NCBI GenBank assembly: GCA_022644775.1
Contig: JALCHN010000007.1
Location: 1 to 55,642 of the forward strand
DNA length: 55,642 nucleotides
Direction of reading: 5' to 3'
From: Eggerthellaceae bacterium
GTDB taxonomy: Bacteria; Actinomycetota; Coriobacteriia; Coriobacteriales; Eggerthellaceae
Under the pieces are notes generated by a model, which saw nothing but the letters and a program-made list of their open reading frames with translations, made no database searches and had not been told where the DNA came from. Made by a program: the position numbers and the translations under genes. Below are positions 21,709 to 36,583 of this stretch, one piece after another; positions within the stretch are counted from its first letter, which is position 1, and each line of letters opens with the position of its first letter.

Positions 21709-21736
21709 TTGACTTTAAGTTAGACATGGCTAATAT
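21709..21736 (+). promoter_or_regulatory. promoter with DtxR-type operator, in front of candidate sRNA
   Basis: TTGACT (21709-21714) and TAATAT (21731-21736) are spaced 16 bp. Between and over them lies GTTAGACATGGCTAAT (21719-21734), which matches the operator in the feoA promoter at 12 of 16 or more positions. Occupancy would block initiation, as with iron-loaded DtxR/IdeR. Confidence 0.72.
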
Positions 21737-21742
21737 ATGACC

Positions 21743-21930
21743 TATCGGAAGTTAACCGAAGGAAACAAACACCGCGAACTTCCACTTTGACATCGTTAAC
21801 TCGAAGGCCCCATGCACACCTCCTTCTCGTCTGCTATCTCGCATGAGGGTCTGGGCAGGTTCCGTCCGCTTCTCCCGGAACCTGCCCAATTGTTGCGTAG
21901 AGGGCCGACCCGCCGAGGGTCGGCCTTTTT
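21743..21930 (+). ncRNA. candidate metal-regulated small RNA
   Basis: Predicted from signals only. A strong promoter with a DtxR-type box (21709-21736) starts a transcript of about 190 nt that ends at a textbook terminator (21903-21930). Inside are a C-rich single-stranded tract CACCTCCTTCTCG (21817-21829), which reads like the 16S rRNA anti-Shine-Dalgarno end and could pair with ribosome-binding sites, and a 12-bp hairpin (21853-21864 with 21876-21887) with a C-rich 11-base loop. The design resembles iron-sparing sRNAs with C-rich pairing regions, such as B. subtilis FsrA. A short frame from ATG 21812 exists but lacks a ribosome-binding site. It could alternatively be an attenuated leader of the feo operon. 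Confidence 0.55.
21903..21930 (+). terminator. Rho-independent terminator of the candidate sRNA
   Basis: GGCCGACCC (21903-21911), loop GCCGA, GGGTCGGCC (21917-21925), then five T. The 205 bases that follow, up to the feoA promoter, show no gene. Confidence 0.88.
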
Positions 21931-22135
21931 CATTGCGGGGGAGCTGCCGGCGCGGCTGCCGGCGCGTTGGAGCCCGTGCCGGCGCCGTACATGGGAGCCG
22001 CGCTCGCTGCCCCGCTCCGCCCTTTCGGCAGCCTGCCTCGCCCGCTTGCGGGGCAGGCGGCATGCGCTCCCGAACCCTGCCCTTCGGATGCGCTCCTCCC
22101 TGTGAATTTCGCCTGCATAAGTCAGGCGATAAAGC

Positions 22136-22163
22136 TTGACTAACTGTTAGCAATGGCTAACAT
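22136..22163 (+). promoter_or_regulatory. feoA promoter with DtxR-type operator
   Basis: TTGACT (22136-22141), 16-bp spacer, TAACAT (22158-22163). The perfect palindrome TGTTAGC-AATG-GCTAACA (22145-22162) fills the spacer and -10. This is the best conserved of three similar boxes in the feo region and the obvious target for the iron-type DtxR protein encoded at 26476-26862. Confidence 0.78.
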
Positions 22164-22241
22164 GCAATCTGGTATTAGAAACGCCTAACTTTCCGTCTGC
22201 GGAAAGGTTCGGGCGCGGTCACCACGAGAAAGAGGTTTCGC

Positions 22242-22451
22242 ATGGTGCTCACGAAGGTACAAACGGGCGGGGACTATCTGATCCACGCCGTAACCGGCGA
22301 GGGCGACGTACGCCATCATCTCGAAGGGCTGGGCTTCGTCCCCGGCACGAAGATCAACGTGGTGTCCCGCATCGGCGGCAATCTCATCGTGAACGTGCGC
22401 GGGTCCCGCGTCGCTCTCGACCAGAAACTGGCCGCCTGCGTGCTCGTATAG
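22242..22451 (+). CDS. feoA: FeoA-family ferrous iron transport accessory protein
   Basis: 69-residue SH3-like FeoA protein: HHLEGLGFVPGTKINVVSRIGGNLIVNVRGSRVALD contains the family LGhxpG turn and the VxGsrxALd strand. FeoA acts in the cytoplasm at FeoB. ATG 22242 follows GAAAGAGG. It heads the feoA-feoA-feoB operon downstream of the operator promoter at 22136. Confidence 0.9.
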   Translation: MVLTKVQTGGDYLIHAVTGEGDVRHHLEGLGFVPGTKINVVSRIGGNLIVNVRGSRVALDQKLAACVLV

Positions 22452-22495
22452 CGCGCGGACCTTACGCACGGAAGCTGGGCAAAGGAAGGAGGACC

Positions 22496-22717
22496 ATGGC
22501 TACGCTCGATACGGTATCCACCGGCCAAACGGTTTCAGTCACGCGTCTCACGGGCGAGGGTGCAACCAAGCGTCGCATCATGGACATGGGCATCACGAAG
22601 GGCACCGATATCTACATTCGCAAGGTCGCGCCCCTGGGCGATCCGATCGAAGTCACGGTGCGCGGCTACGAGCTGTCCCTGCGCAAGGCCGAAGCCGAGC
22701 ATGTGGAAGTCCAGTAG
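22496..22717 (+). CDS. feoA: second FeoA-family protein of the feo operon
   Basis: 73 residues, FeoA fold: TRLTGEGATKRRIMDMGITKGTDIYIRKVAPLGDPIEVTVRGYELSLRKAEAEHVEV, with the family MGhxkGt turn and the DPIEVxVRGYELSLRKxEA ending that is closer to canonical FeoA than the first copy. AAGGAGG lies before ATG 22496. Tandem feoA genes before feoB are common in anaerobic Gram-positives. Confidence 0.92.
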   Translation: MATLDTVSTGQTVSVTRLTGEGATKRRIMDMGITKGTDIYIRKVAPLGDPIEVTVRGYELSLRKAEAEHVEVQ

Positions 22718-22723
22718 GCTTCC

Positions 22724-22758
22724 GCATGCCGCTTTGCAGGCATGAGCAGGGCTTTTTT
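22724..22758 (+). terminator. possible attenuator between feoA and feoB
   Basis: CATGCC/GGCATG hairpin (22725-22744) followed, after eight bases, by a run of six T (22753-22758). The gap before the T run makes it a weak terminator; it may reduce readthrough into feoB, which has its own operator downstream. Confidence 0.45.
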
Positions 22759-22768
22759 ATCTCATACA

Positions 22769-22784
22769 GTTAACTAAGGCTAAC
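22769..22784 (+). promoter_or_regulatory. DtxR-type operator upstream of feoB
   Basis: GTTAACTAAGGCTAAC, a third copy of the feo-region box, 54 bases before feoB. The -10/-35 elements are less clear here than at the other two copies. Confidence 0.6.
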
Positions 22785-22837
22785 AAGTAGACATTCCTAA
22801 TAATAGCCCTGCCGCACGGCATGGCAAGGGAGGTTCA

Positions 22838-25321
22838 ATGGAACTCAACGTAGCGTTGGTGGGCAACCCCAACTGCGGTAAGACCACGCTGTTCAACGCG
22901 TTGACCGGTGCCAACCAGTACGTGGGCAACTGGCCGGGCGTGACCGTGGAAAAGAAAACCGGCAAACTCAAGGGCGAGAGCGACGTCACGATCGTCGACT
23001 TGCCCGGCATCTACTCGCTGTCCCCCTACACCCTTGAAGAGGTCGTGGCGCGCGATTACCTCATCGACGGCGCTCCGAACGCGATTCTGAACATCGTCGA
23101 TGGCAGCAATCTCGAACGCAACCTCTACCTGAGCACCCAGGCGATCGAGCTCGGCATCCCCACCGTGATCGCGGTGAACATGATGGACGTCGTCGAAAAG
23201 AACGGCGACGCGATCGACCTTGACGCCCTGTCCGAAAAGATGGGCGCTCCCGTCGTGGCCATTTCGGCCCTGAAGGGCAAGGGCATCGACGAGATGAAGG
23301 CCAAGCTGCTCGAGGTCGCCCGCAGCGGCGCGGCGCCTGCGCGCGCCCACCGCTTCTCGGCCGACGTGGAAGAGGCCCTTTCCCAGATTGAGGCCGAGCT
23401 TCCCACCGACGTGCCCGCGCACGCTCGCCGCTTCTTCGCGGTCAAGGTCTTCGAGCGCGACGCGAAGATCGCCGGTCACATGAGCGCCGCCCCCGACGTC
23501 GAGGGCCTCATTGCCAAGCTCGAAAAGGAAATGGACGACGACGCCGAAAGCATCATCGTCAACGAGCGCTACAACTACATCACCTCGATCATCGGCGCCT
23601 GCCTCACCCACGCGAGCGCGCAGAAGGAATCAGTGTCCGACAAGATCGACCGCGTCGTGACCAACCGCTTCCTGGCCCTGCCGATCTTCGTCGTGGTCAT
23701 GTTCCTCGTCTACTTCCTCTCGATTACCACGATCGGCACCGGCGCCACCGACTGGGTCAACGACAACCTCTTCGGCGATGGCTGGTTCGTTGCGGGCGAC
23801 CAGGAGCAGATCGACGAGTACACCGACCTGTCCGACGAGTACACCGCCGCTACCGGCGAGATCGAGGCTTTCAACGAAGCTGCCGCCGACGCTGGCCTGG
23901 AAGCTCCCGAAGCCCCCGACGACGACGCGACCGATGACGAACTCGCCGCCTACGACGCCGACATGGAGCAGTTCATCGCCGACGCCGACGCGGCCGGCAT
24001 CACCGCCACCTACGACGATTACGACGACGAAACCGGCGAGAACGAGGAAATCGCCGTCGACGCCGCCACCTACGCCGAAGCCCTCGACGTCGAGGAGCCC
24101 GACCCGTCCGACTACGGCGTCTGGGTGCCCGGCATCCCCGCGCTCGTGACGGGCGCGATGGAAGCGGGCGACGTCGACCCGCAGGTGCAGAGCCTGGTCA
24201 TCGACGGCATCGTCGCCGGCGTCGGCTCGGTCTTCGGCTTCCTGCCCCAGATGGCCGTCCTCTTCCTGCCGCTCGCCCTGCTCGAAGGCTGCGGCTACAT
24301 GTCCCGCGTCGCCTTCATCCTCGACCGCATCTTCCGTCGCTTCGGCCTTTCGGGCAAGAGCTTCATCCCCATGCTCATCGGCACCGGCTGCGGCGTGCCC
24401 GCGGTCATGTCCTCCCGCACCATCGAAAACGAAAACGACCGCCGCATGACGGTCATGACGACCACCTTCATGCCCTGCTCGGCCAAGCTGCCCATCATCG
24501 CCCTTATCTCCGGCGCGATCTTCGGCGGCGAATGGTGGGTCGCCCCGAGCGCCTACTTCCTGGGCATCGGCTCGATTCTGCTCTCCGGCGTGATCTTGAA
24601 GAAGACCAAGCCCTTCGCGGGCAAGACCGCCCCGTTCGTCATGGAGCTGCCGGCCTACCATGTGCCCACCGCGGGCTTCCTGCTCCGCAGCATCTGGGAG
24701 CGTTGCTGGGCCTTCATGAAGAAGGCCGGCACGATCATCCTCGCTGCCGCGATCGCGATCTGGTTCCTGTCCGGCTACGGTTTCGTCAACGGCTCCTTCG
24801 GCCCGGTCGACGACCAGTCTCTGTCTCTGCTCGCCGCCTTCGGCAACGCGATCGCCTGGATCTTCGTCCCGCAGGGCTTCGGCAACTGGCAGGCAGCCGC
24901 GACCACGGTCACCGGCCTCATCGCCAAGGAGAACGTCGTCAGCACCTTCGGCATCCTCTACGCCGGCGATGCGGGCTGGATCGCCAACGTGCAGGCCGCC
25001 TTCACCCCGGCTGCCGGCTACGCCTTCCTGGCCTTCAACCTCCTGTGCGCTCCCTGCTTCGCGGCTATGGGTGCCATCCGCAAGGAGATGAACGGCGGCA
25101 AGTGGCTCTGGGCCGCCATCGGCTACGAATGCGGGTTCGCCTGGTGCATGTCGCTGGTCATCTACCAACTGGCGGGCCTGGCTACCGGTGAAGTCTCCTT
25201 CAACTTCTTCACCGTCGTGGCCTTCGCCCTGATCGCCTTCGCGATCTACATGCTCGTGCGCCCCAACAGGCACACCGACGCTGCGGTGCGTCTGTCGGTA
25301 AGCGCCGCCGACGCCGCCTAG
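22838..25321 (+). CDS. feoB: ferrous iron transporter FeoB with acidic extracytoplasmic insertion
   Basis: 827-residue Fe(II) permease. The N-terminal G domain has G1 GNPNCGKTT (residues 7-15), G3 DLPGIYSL near 52-59 and G4 NMMD near 113-116. A KIDRVVTNRF segment leads to the first membrane helix (about residues 280-300). The pore-region Gate motif SGKSFIPMLIGTGCGVPAV and the later Gate segment around GLIAKENVVSTFG are present. Between the first and second helices there is an insertion of about 100 residues (320-425) very rich in Asp, Glu and Ala, which by topology would face outward; ordinary FeoB has 20-30 residues there. Co-transcribed with two feoA genes under a DtxR-type operator. Confidence 0.95.
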   Translation: MELNVALVGNPNCGKTTLFNALTGANQYVGNWPGVTVEKKTGKLKGESDVTIVDLPGIYSLSPYTLEEVVARDYLIDGAPNAILNIVDGSNLERNLYLSTQAIELGIPTVIAVNMMDVVEKNGDAIDLDALSEKMGAPVVAISALKGKGIDEMKAKLLEVARSGAAPARAHRFSADVEEALSQIEAELPTDVPAHARRFFAVKVFERDAKIAGHMSAAPDVEGLIAKLEKEMDDDAESIIVNERYNYITSIIGACLTHASAQKESVSDKIDRVVTNRFLALPIFVVVMFLVYFLSITTIGTGATDWVNDNLFGDGWFVAGDQEQIDEYTDLSDEYTAATGEIEAFNEAAADAGLEAPEAPDDDATDDELAAYDADMEQFIADADAAGITATYDDYDDETGENEEIAVDAATYAEALDVEEPDPSDYGVWVPGIPALVTGAMEAGDVDPQVQSLVIDGIVAGVGSVFGFLPQMAVLFLPLALLEGCGYMSRVAFILDRIFRRFGLSGKSFIPMLIGTGCGVPAVMSSRTIENENDRRMTVMTTTFMPCSAKLPIIALISGAIFGGEWWVAPSAYFLGIGSILLSGVILKKTKPFAGKTAPFVMELPAYHVPTAGFLLRSIWERCWAFMKKAGTIILAAAIAIWFLSGYGFVNGSFGPVDDQSLSLLAAFGNAIAWIFVPQGFGNWQAAATTVTGLIAKENVVSTFGILYAGDAGWIANVQAAFTPAAGYAFLAFNLLCAPCFAAMGAIRKEMNGGKWLWAAIGYECGFAWCMSLVIYQLAGLATGEVSFNFFTVVAFALIAFAIYMLVRPNRHTDAAVRLSVSAADAA

Positions 25322-25370: not shown

Positions 25371-25395
25371 ACTACCTATGAAAGAAGGGAGTGCG

Positions 25396-25632
25396 ATGGA
25401 TATGAATCTGGGAACGGCTCTCACGCTCGCTCTGATCGCAGTCGCGCTTATTCCCGCCGTTCGCCAGCTGGTGGGCAAGGGAGGGTCGTCGTGCGACGGC
25501 TGCAACGGGTCGTGCAACAGCTGCAATGCCGCCGACAAGATGGTCCGCGACATGAAGCGGGCCGAGCGCAAGCGGTCCCGCCGTATGCGCAAGCAGATGC
25601 GCGGTCGCGCGGTGGGGATGCGCCGCGCATGA
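25396..25632 (+). CDS. FeoB-associated Cys-rich membrane peptide
   Basis: 78 residues: one N-terminal membrane helix (LGTALTLALIAVALIPAV), a cysteine cluster CDGCNGSCNSC, then a strongly basic tail. This matches the FeoB-associated Cys-rich membrane protein family found right after feoB in many anaerobes, where it may deliver or sense iron in place of FeoC. AAGAAGGGAG precedes ATG 25396; ATG 25402 is a possible alternative. The stop overlaps the AraC start (ATGA). Confidence 0.82.
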   Translation: MDMNLGTALTLALIAVALIPAVRQLVGKGGSSCDGCNGSCNSCNAADKMVRDMKRAERKRSRRMRKQMRGRAVGMRRA

Positions 25633-26525
25633 GAAACGACACGGCGCTCGGCGCCTCATATTCGTTCGATTTGTTCAACGGGGTGCGTCTCACGCTGTGG
25701 GACGCACCCTCTTGCGTGCGCTTCCCCTTGAACGCCGCCGGCCCCTCCGACGCCTTCGTCGTGGCTTACTGCCGCATGGGCGCGCTCGCGATCGATGCGG
25801 GCGGCGCGCGCCCGGTGGGGGTCAGGGCGGGAGACGCCCTGCTCGTGACCCCGGCTCACGGCGCGCCAGTGGCGGAGGCAGCCGAACGGACGCGGGGCGT
25901 GGCGATTGCGATCGCGCCGGGTGCGGTCGACGTTGCCGGCGGCCGCAACGCCTTCGGGCTCGACCTGTCGGCGCTGGTGGCCAAGGCCTCCGCCGCGGCC
26001 GACCCTATGGTGATGCGCACCGACGCCGTGCCTTCGCGGGTCTGCTTCGATCTGGAAGCCATGCGGGCCAACAGCGAGCCCGAGGGACTGCTGCGGCTCA
26101 AGGCGATCGAGATCCTCATCCTCATGCAGGGAATCGTGGTCGACGGCCGTCATCGTGCAAACGCCCGCACGAGCGCCGCCCTGCACCGGGAGCGCATCGC
26201 CTTCGGCGCCGAGGCCCTCATGAAGCGGGACATGAGCAAAACGATGACGATTTCCGAATTGGCCCAAGCGGTCGGCGTGTCGCCCACGGTGCTCAAGGAG
26301 GCCTTCAAAGAAACCTTCGGCATGCCCGTCTACGCCTGGTACCGCGACTTCCGCATGCAGCGCGCCTGCGAGATGCTCGTCGACCGGCCCCAGTCGTCGA
26401 TCGGCGAAATCGCCGCCGAGGTGGGCTATTCGAACCCGTCGAAGTTTTCCAAGGCCTTTGCGGAATGCGTGGGGGCTACGCCTCGAGCTTGGCGCTCTGC
26501 GCAAAGTAGGCCTTCAGACAATTGA
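25629..26525 (+). CDS. AraC-family transcriptional regulator
   Basis: 298 residues. The C-terminal ~100 hold two helix-turn-helix motifs typical of AraC: TISELAQAVGVSPTVLKEAFKETFG and SIGEIAAEVGYSNPSKFSKAFAE. The N-terminal 170 residues are a small-molecule-sensing domain with no clear cupin signature. It begins within the stop of the FeoB-associated peptide gene, so it belongs to the feo operon; regulators of this build (PchR/YbtA-like) control iron uptake. Its 3' end overlaps the convergent DtxR gene by 50 bases. Confidence 0.86.
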   Translation: MRNDTALGASYSFDLFNGVRLTLWDAPSCVRFPLNAAGPSDAFVVAYCRMGALAIDAGGARPVGVRAGDALLVTPAHGAPVAEAAERTRGVAIAIAPGAVDVAGGRNAFGLDLSALVAKASAAADPMVMRTDAVPSRVCFDLEAMRANSEPEGLLRLKAIEILILMQGIVVDGRHRANARTSAALHRERIAFGAEALMKRDMSKTMTISELAQAVGVSPTVLKEAFKETFGMPVYAWYRDFRMQRACEMLVDRPQSSIGEIAAEVGYSNPSKFSKAFAECVGATPRAWRSAQSRPSDN

Positions 26526-26862
26526 AGGTCTCGTCGCTGATGTAGTGCTCGACGCGACAGGCGTCGGCTTGCGCGACTTCGGGCTGCACCCCGATGCTTT
26601 CGAAGATCTTGGTGAGGGTCACGTGGCGCTCGAAGATCTTCTTGGCCGTTTGCGTGCCCAGGTCGGTGAGCTCGATAGCGCTGCCCTGGGCCGGCTTCAC
26701 GTAGCCGGACGCGCGCAGCTTGCTCATCCATTCGCTGATCGTGGGCTTGGAATAGCCCATTTCCTGGGCGATGTCGACGGCGCGCACGACGCCGTTGCGC
26801 AGATGCAGGCGATAAATCGTTTCCAGGTACATTTCCGCCGATTCATGCAATACCAGTGCCAT
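26476..26862 (-). CDS. DtxR-family regulator, iron-type ligand set
   Basis: 128 residues: N-terminal winged helix (about 10-65; RAVDIAQEMGYSKPTISEWMSKL) and a dimerisation/metal domain (66-128; VEHYISDETF), without the SH3 domain of full-length DtxR. At the position that distinguishes metals it has AEMYLETIY, Met like DtxR/IdeR (Met10), rather than the Asp of MntR (Asp8), so Fe(II) sensing is predicted. It is the natural candidate to bind the three GTTAG...GCTAAC boxes of the feo region. It is convergent to, and overlaps, the AraC gene. Confidence 0.87.
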   Translation of the reverse strand: MALVLHESAEMYLETIYRLHLRNGVVRAVDIAQEMGYSKPTISEWMSKLRASGYVKPAQGSAIELTDLGTQTAKKIFERHVTLTKIFESIGVQPEVAQADACRVEHYISDETFNCLKAYFAQSAKLEA

Positions 26863-36181: not shown

Positions 36182-36583
36182 ATGGACAAACATCGCGAAG
36201 CTCGCCCCCTGATGTCCGAATCGAACGAGGATTACCTGGAAGCGATCGTCAAGCTCGGCGGGACCGTCGAGCACTCGGTGCGGTCGGTCGACATCGCCGC
36301 CCATATGGGGGTTTCGAAGGCGTCGGTGTCGAAGGCGATGACGAACCTGAAGGCGGCCGGCATGCTCGACCAGCCCTTCTACGGGGCGGTCACGCTCACC
36401 GAAGCGGGCTACGACTACGGCCGGCGGGTGCTCGAGCACCACACGATGCTCTTCGATTTCCTGCATAAGGCCTTGAGGATCGACGAGGAAACGGCCGAAC
36501 GGGAAGCCCACCTGATCGAGCACGACATCAGCGACGAGTCCTACGAAAAGTGGGCGGCGTATGTAGGCGGCCTCAACCTGTAG
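36182..36583 (+). CDS. DtxR-family regulator, manganese-type (MntR-like) ligand set
   Basis: 133 residues, the MntR size class: winged helix (about 15-75; SVRSVDIAAHMGVSKASVSKAM) and a dimerisation/metal domain (HHTMLFDFLHKAL, EREAHLIEHDISDESYEKW). At the metal-selecting position it reads NEDYLEAI, with Asp like MntR Asp8, whereas the other DtxR-family protein here has Met. The later His-Glu-x-x-x-His-type ligands are also seen (EAHLIEHD). ATG 36182 follows GAGAGGAGGG. It lies 99 bases after feoB2 and probably controls it. Confidence 0.87.
   Translation: MDKHREARPLMSESNEDYLEAIVKLGGTVEHSVRSVDIAAHMGVSKASVSKAMTNLKAAGMLDQPFYGAVTLTEAGYDYGRRVLEHHTMLFDFLHKALRIDEETAEREAHLIEHDISDESYEKWAAYVGGLNL

Follow-up and report, generated by a model that had tools for sequence, protein, structure and literature searches.

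RyhB and PrrF are instances of the solution in which iron shortage leads to a small RNA (sRNA) and the small RNA to a covered ribosome site, and FsrA, a further sRNA of this kind, is under Fur control. In Bacillus subtilis, FsrA spares iron through a C-rich motif that pairs with the Shine–Dalgarno (SD) sequence, and it needs the helpers FbpA, FbpB, and FbpC (PMC9410917). IsrR of the staphylococci is iron-repressed through two operators, masks the SD or AUG of its targets with C-rich hairpin loops, ends in a terminator, acts independently of Hfq, and is present genus-wide (PMC9410917). MrsI of the mycobacteria is an iron-starvation sRNA under a box of the DtxR family (IdeR) (reviewed in PMC8628891). 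In the rhizobial alpha-r14/NfeR1 RNAs, an ultraconserved anti-SD motif is displayed in successive hairpin loops on variable stems, and NfeR1 silences ntrB at the initiation region (PMC10746234). The actinobacterial 6C RNA has two hairpins with pyrimidine-rich loops, in which six cytosines are conserved (PMC8628891; Rfam). As the sequence-only reading of this DNA had supposed, no RNA like the one analyzed here was found described for its group; a search of the open-access literature, with subscription papers outside it, gave no small regulatory RNA of Coriobacteriia. We know of no iron control of 6C RNA.

The window, that is, the whole stretch of 55.6 kb that was analyzed, contains between thrC (minus strand) and feoA-feoA-feoB (plus strand) a gene for a predicted sRNA. 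The features are as follows.

21709–21736, plus strand: promoter of the sRNA gene, TTGACT-N16-TAATAT, read directly from the sequence (−35 TTGACT at 21709–21714, −10 TAATAT at 21731–21736, both plus strand)
21720–21733, plus strand: DtxR-type operator TTAGACATGGCTAA, overlapping the −10; found likewise at feoA, flavodoxin, and the siderophore genes of genome G029
21743–21930, plus strand: predicted sRNA transcript of ~188 nt; 5′ end placed by inference ~7 nt past the −10, 3′ end at the terminator
21788–21805, plus strand: conserved linker 5′ of hairpin 1 (TTGACATCGTTAACTCGA region; TTGACAAGTTAAC in many relatives), from alignments
21806–21851, plus strand: hairpin 1, GGCCCCATGC (21806–21815) with GCATGAGGGTC (21841–21851), 10 bp and one bulged A; the stem covaries
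21818–21833, plus strand: invariant loop-1 sequence ACCUCCUUCUCGUCUG, 16 bases, from the alignment of carriers
21853–21887, plus strand: hairpin 2, 12-bp stem (21853–21864 with 21876–21887), supported by covariation
21903–21930, plus strand: intrinsic terminator, 9-bp stem (21903–21911 with 21917–21925), 5-nt loop, and T5 (21926–21930)
22136–22188, plus strand: feoA promoter (22136–22163) with two DtxR-type boxes (22147–22160 and 22175–22188)
22242–22451, plus strand: feoA, first copy (Pfam FeoA)
22838–25321, plus strand: feoB (full-length relatives)
26476–26862, minus strand: DtxR/MntR-family repressor, candidate reader of the box (Pfam Fe_dep_repress and Fe_dep_repr_C)

Most of this layout had been claimed by the sequence-only reading and stands: the −35/−10 pair with an embedded DtxR-type box, the stretch of about 190 nt with no convincing gene (no reading frame in it is conserved), the 12-bp hairpin with a C-rich loop, the strong terminator, and a feoA with its own promoter and operator. 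The anti-SD-like tract is also present (CACCTCCTTCTCG, 21817–21829), but it is not free as had been stated; it lies in the 25-nt loop (21816–21840) of hairpin 1, which had been overlooked. The linker, marked by TTGACA/GTTAAC, is kept in nearly all homologues.

In Rfam 15, the only matches of the window were two tRNAs, and no family reached its gathering threshold on the RNA (best sub-threshold score, 16.5 bits, where 111 are needed). We regard the RNA as a new family of a known type, comparable with IsrR, FsrA, and MrsI and with loops like those of alpha-r14/NfeR1. It shares with 6C RNA the two hairpins with pyrimidine-rich loops, but the window RNA has no match to the Rfam 6C model even at an E value of 10. 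The invariant, predicted anti-SD loops on covarying stems follow the plan of alpha-r14/NfeR1. The rhizobial RNAs differ in carrying the motif CCUCCUCCC in three hairpins, in serving nitrogen control, and in belonging to alphaproteobacteria; here, one hairpin of the two carries a motif of the form CCUCCUUCUC, and the Rfam model is not matched, which places the RNA outside that family.

Homologues of the sRNA were found by pattern search and covariance model in 11 of 137 Eggerthellaceae genomes, representing five genera, and the covariance search proposed by the sequence-only reading thus yielded a conserved family. (G-numbers denote genomes and L-numbers loci; G000 is the genome of the window and belongs to one genus with G001, Hugonella massiliensis AT8.) By DNA search, four other genomes were seen to share the region, with 75–89% identity. 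In the rest of the class, a degenerate seed pattern run over 398 genomes of Coriobacteriia gave no credible further copy. A covariance-model match in G063 (E 0.03) was rejected because it resembles coding sequence; seed-pattern matches in G247, G323, and G268, coding-like and without the GTCTG loop, were likewise rejected, from sequence alone.

The two stems are strongly supported by covariation. In an alignment that was fitted to the covariance model and hence leans towards structure, and in which the imperfect alignment of hairpin 1 in genus g56 lowers the pairing score, 92.7% of the cells of both stems are base-paired versus 73.6% in shuffles, and 49 cells are double-changed versus 15.5. 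Compensatory change on both sides occurs at 19 of 22 pairs. For hairpin 2, this holds for 11 of the 12 pairs, with 96.2% of cells paired. When the partner strand was slid by 1–3 columns as a control, pairing dropped to 27–50%. On the plus strand, G–U pairs outnumber A–C mismatches by 14 to 5 (5 to 1 for hairpin 1, counted over its seven well-aligned rows), and this excess favors transcription from that strand. Because five genera keep the element with covarying stems, and because the DtxR-type boxes of the window are confined to the feo region, it goes beyond chance. A conserved gene for a predicted small RNA across five related genera is thereby confirmed.

The same alignment bears on whether the stretch is instead a small protein gene on either strand. 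An ATG at 21812 on the plus strand and an SD–ATG-like start on the minus strand (MGPSS*) would be its beginnings. The plus frame, however, is shifted by one-base insertions before ACCTCC in G024, G029, and G085 and its ATG is missing in genus g56, so that no plus-strand peptide is conserved; G084 and G085 lack the minus frame, and elsewhere it has other lengths. Stems that covary around invariant loops also speak against coding, and we consider a protein product extremely unlikely.

The position of the gene immediately 5′ of feoA on the same strand, in the window and in five other carriers, could mean that the RNA is a long feoA leader or attenuator, with hairpins that govern read-through and do not act in trans. 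This is very unlikely, given the strong terminator in the window, the separate promoter and boxes of feoA, and the gene context in other carriers. The RNA lies among non-iron genes in G084, G086, and G087, in the opposite orientation in the latter two. In G085, its neighbors are thrC on one side and dtxR on the other, and feoA has its own boxes on a separate contig. The sequence-only reading had named a mere feoA leader as its own refutation, and the leader is rejected on these three grounds. With its own predicted promoter and terminator and its variable location, the RNA has the properties of a trans-encoded, free-standing sRNA. A clear terminator was seen in the window and in several relatives, not in every one.

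The predicted operator lies over the promoter, as in iron-repressed sRNAs. A 28-nt layout of TTGAC, DtxR-type box, and TAA[TC]AT is identical in all 11 carriers. The promoter form TTGACNNNNNGTTANNNNNNNNTAAYAT, a pattern derived from the carriers themselves, occurs in 11 of 11 carriers and in 1 of 126 other genomes of the family; in G000, G001, and G085, it occurs twice, the second copy being upstream of feoA. At loci L005, L102, L103, L104, and L113, a second DtxR-type box follows just 3′ of the promoter, as in most relatives; it is degenerate in the window and in G001.

The distribution of the box is restricted. The window has five matches with 0–1 mismatch in 55.6 kb, all within 21720–22800: one before the sRNA, two before feoA, and two before feoB. 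In 0.8 Mb of G001, the strict box has five sites, three at feoA, one at the sRNA, and one at flavodoxin, and in G019, presumably Cryptobacterium curtum, it is found at two feoA sites, then at the sRNA, flavodoxin, and a few others. G000 has just two additional strict sites, of which one is the syntenic site at flavodoxin and the other is on contig C12 (L305, 24090–24104, 5′ of a minus-strand gene). The boxed flavodoxin genes of G001 and G019 (L262, 9327–9746, minus strand; L211, 6080–6499, plus strand), with the box 71–81 nt upstream, are candidates for the iron-starvation flavodoxin of the lineage. In G029, boxes precede genes for a 2,3-dihydroxybenzoate-AMP ligase, a nonribosomal peptide synthetase (NRPS), and transporter-like proteins. 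The loci concerned include L302, L306, and L308, where the box lies ahead of the ligase, part of the NRPS, and another AMP-binding enzyme; this suggests that an Eggerthellaceae bacterium has a siderophore of the catechol type.

In the textbook picture, iron shortage turns on the genes for Feo, flavodoxin, and catechol siderophores. Because the sRNA shares its box with feoA, flavodoxin, and the putative siderophore genes of one relative, it is very likely repressed by iron through a DtxR-type protein. A DtxR/MntR-family gene lies 1.2 kb past feoB, and a relative of it was found in 11 of 11 carriers. Since MntR and DtxR are its nearest NCBIfam models and all matches are under the cut-off, it is the regulon, and not the protein, that points to iron as the sensed metal. 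A second gene of this family (36212–36565, plus strand) is 35% identical to the first. The paired boxes ahead of feoA and feoB (22147–22188 and 22770–22800) suggest that the feo cluster has two separately controlled promoters. Directly after feoB, a small Cys-rich frame (25378–25632, plus strand; SCDGCNGSCNSCNAADK) is FeoB-associated-like and has no Pfam match.

Among the iron-responsive RNAs, IsrR has a similar plan: iron repression, C-rich loops over the SD or AUG, a terminator, and Hfq independence are all predicted here from the sequence. IsrR differs in its control by Fur, its three hairpins plus terminator, its host phylum (Firmicutes), and its proven targets, and its sequence is different. 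The DtxR-type box sets our RNA apart from the IsrR family, as does its confinement to Eggerthellaceae within the class searched, staphylococci being outside that search. MrsI is likewise an actinobacterial iron sRNA with a box of the DtxR family, but by its description it is ~100 nt long, with a 6-nt seed and no pair of anti-SD loops. FsrA shares the plan of iron sparing by C-rich pairing with the SD, as proposed here, and differs in its need for FbpA, FbpB, and FbpC. Hfq was not found in seven carriers, whereas control genomes were positive, which argues against an Hfq-dependent sRNA.

The loops point to the initiation region. Nine bases of loop 1 (CACCUCCUU, 21817–21825) are identical to the 16S rRNA 3′ end GGATCACCTCCTTTCT, read in G019, and loop 1 could therefore compete with the ribosomal anti-SD for SD sequences. 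Together with its closing stem (CCCAUGCACACCUCC), loop 1 complements an entire initiation site, GGAGGUGUGCAUGGG, in which SD and AUG are well spaced. The loop of hairpin 2 (TCCGCTTCTCC / TCCGCUUCUCC, 21865–21875), with eight invariant bases (GCUUCUCC), is likewise complementary to the SD. From this complementarity we infer that the loops pair with SD regions. In a further reading, which we hold to be quite unlikely, the copy of the 16S 3′ end in a stable loop would make the RNA a general rival of ribosomes for SDs when iron runs out, with the flank UCUCGUCUG giving a preference for heme and iron-using operons; the sRNA would then be an iron-tuned translation brake, not a regulator of a few targets.

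Initiation regions were compared in 1.6 Mb of G019 and 0.8 Mb of G001, using our own gene calls; the orthologue comparison covered part of G001 (0.8 Mb), with G000 left out. Against controls that retain AGGAGG, initiation regions with a complement of loop 1 of at least 9 nt numbered 25 versus 12.6 (sd 6.8) in G019 and 9 versus 7.0 (sd 3.9) in G001, a weak excess. Enrichment of iron-protein (Fe–S/heme) motifs among the well-paired regions was marginal (P 0.04–0.11 in G019 and 0.10–0.22 in G001). Among the G019 candidates are cysG, sdhA, several hydrogenase genes, a gene resembling that of aldehyde ferredoxin oxidoreductase, and one for a multihaem cytochrome; these names were partly read from sequence by eye, with checks made on sdhA, nrfA, and the cytochrome. 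As conserved targets, sdhA (10-nt match ACGAGAAGGA in G019) and nrfA (strong in G000 and G001) were rejected, neither match being kept in other genera.

The best target candidate is the heme/siroheme operon, for which complementarity in three carriers is suggestive. GCAGACGAGAGCAAGGAGG lies upstream of hemA in G000 and G001; in G019, GCAGACGAGAGAAGGA lies upstream of cysG, with which that operon begins. All three places have GCAGACGAGA-N-AAGG. The match was not found in G029, G093, and G084, and the core pattern occurred five times in 11 non-carriers. The broader view of the sequence-only reading, an iron-regulated, free-standing sRNA with anti-SD-like sequence, is supported by conservation, covariation, the operator over the promoter, the box regulon, and the variable context; its claim of iron sparing is plausible, with a marginal enrichment and single candidates that are not conserved between genera.

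That marginal enrichment would also suit an iron-repressed trans-acting anti-SD RNA whose main targets are non-iron genes (rplJ, transporters) and which slows translation in general when iron is short. In G019 and G001 alike, rplJ has the longest conserved match (AGAAGGAGGTGT). This match is mostly bare SD, however, and extended matches are also found upstream of heme and hydrogenase genes, so that we think this rather unlikely. Sixteen invariant loop bases exceed the need of SD pairing, and the search for conserved mRNA targets, in G019 and G001 and, for sdhA and nrfA, in other genera, gave none; both points would fit an iron-repressed RNA whose loops, in place of pairing with SD regions, have a protein or a different RNA as partner or act by sequestration. 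Loop 1, though, exactly complements a strong SD with its flank, and both loops are complementary to the SD. The same plan is seen in alpha-r14/NfeR1, and IsrR acts at initiation regions (PMC10746234, PMC9410917). As to a dedicated antisense partner, no well-conserved full complement of loop 1 was found in G019 or G001. We judge such a binding role unlikely.

Here, we propose that the RNA is probably an Hfq-independent, trans-acting regulator that is made in iron starvation and masks SD regions, likely including those of iron-protein mRNAs. When iron is plentiful, the metal-bound DtxR-family repressor would close the sRNA promoter. When iron is scarce, it would let go of this promoter along with those of feoAB and flavodoxin. 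Loop 1 (ACCUCCUUCUCGUCUG), aided by loop 2 (GCUUCUCC), would then pair with SD regions whose upstream flank resembles GCAGACGAGA, and the entry of the ribosome would be blocked. The effect would be iron sparing, in that the cell would make less of iron users such as heme, hydrogenase, or nitrite reductase. Flavodoxin is the standard substitute for ferredoxin, and because this replacement is co-regulated, iron sparing is the likeliest purpose; such a role, that is, which mRNAs are affected, is plausible.

The sRNA would add an apparently independent origin of this solution to iron shortage beside those of RyhB, PrrF, FsrA, IsrR, and MrsI. It does so in Coriobacteriia, a class commonly present in the mouth and gut of humans; in the carriers tested, Hfq is absent. 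Since the seeds are at hand and a repressor gene lies nearby, the iron response may be tested directly in cultured Hugonella massiliensis and probably in Cryptobacterium curtum.
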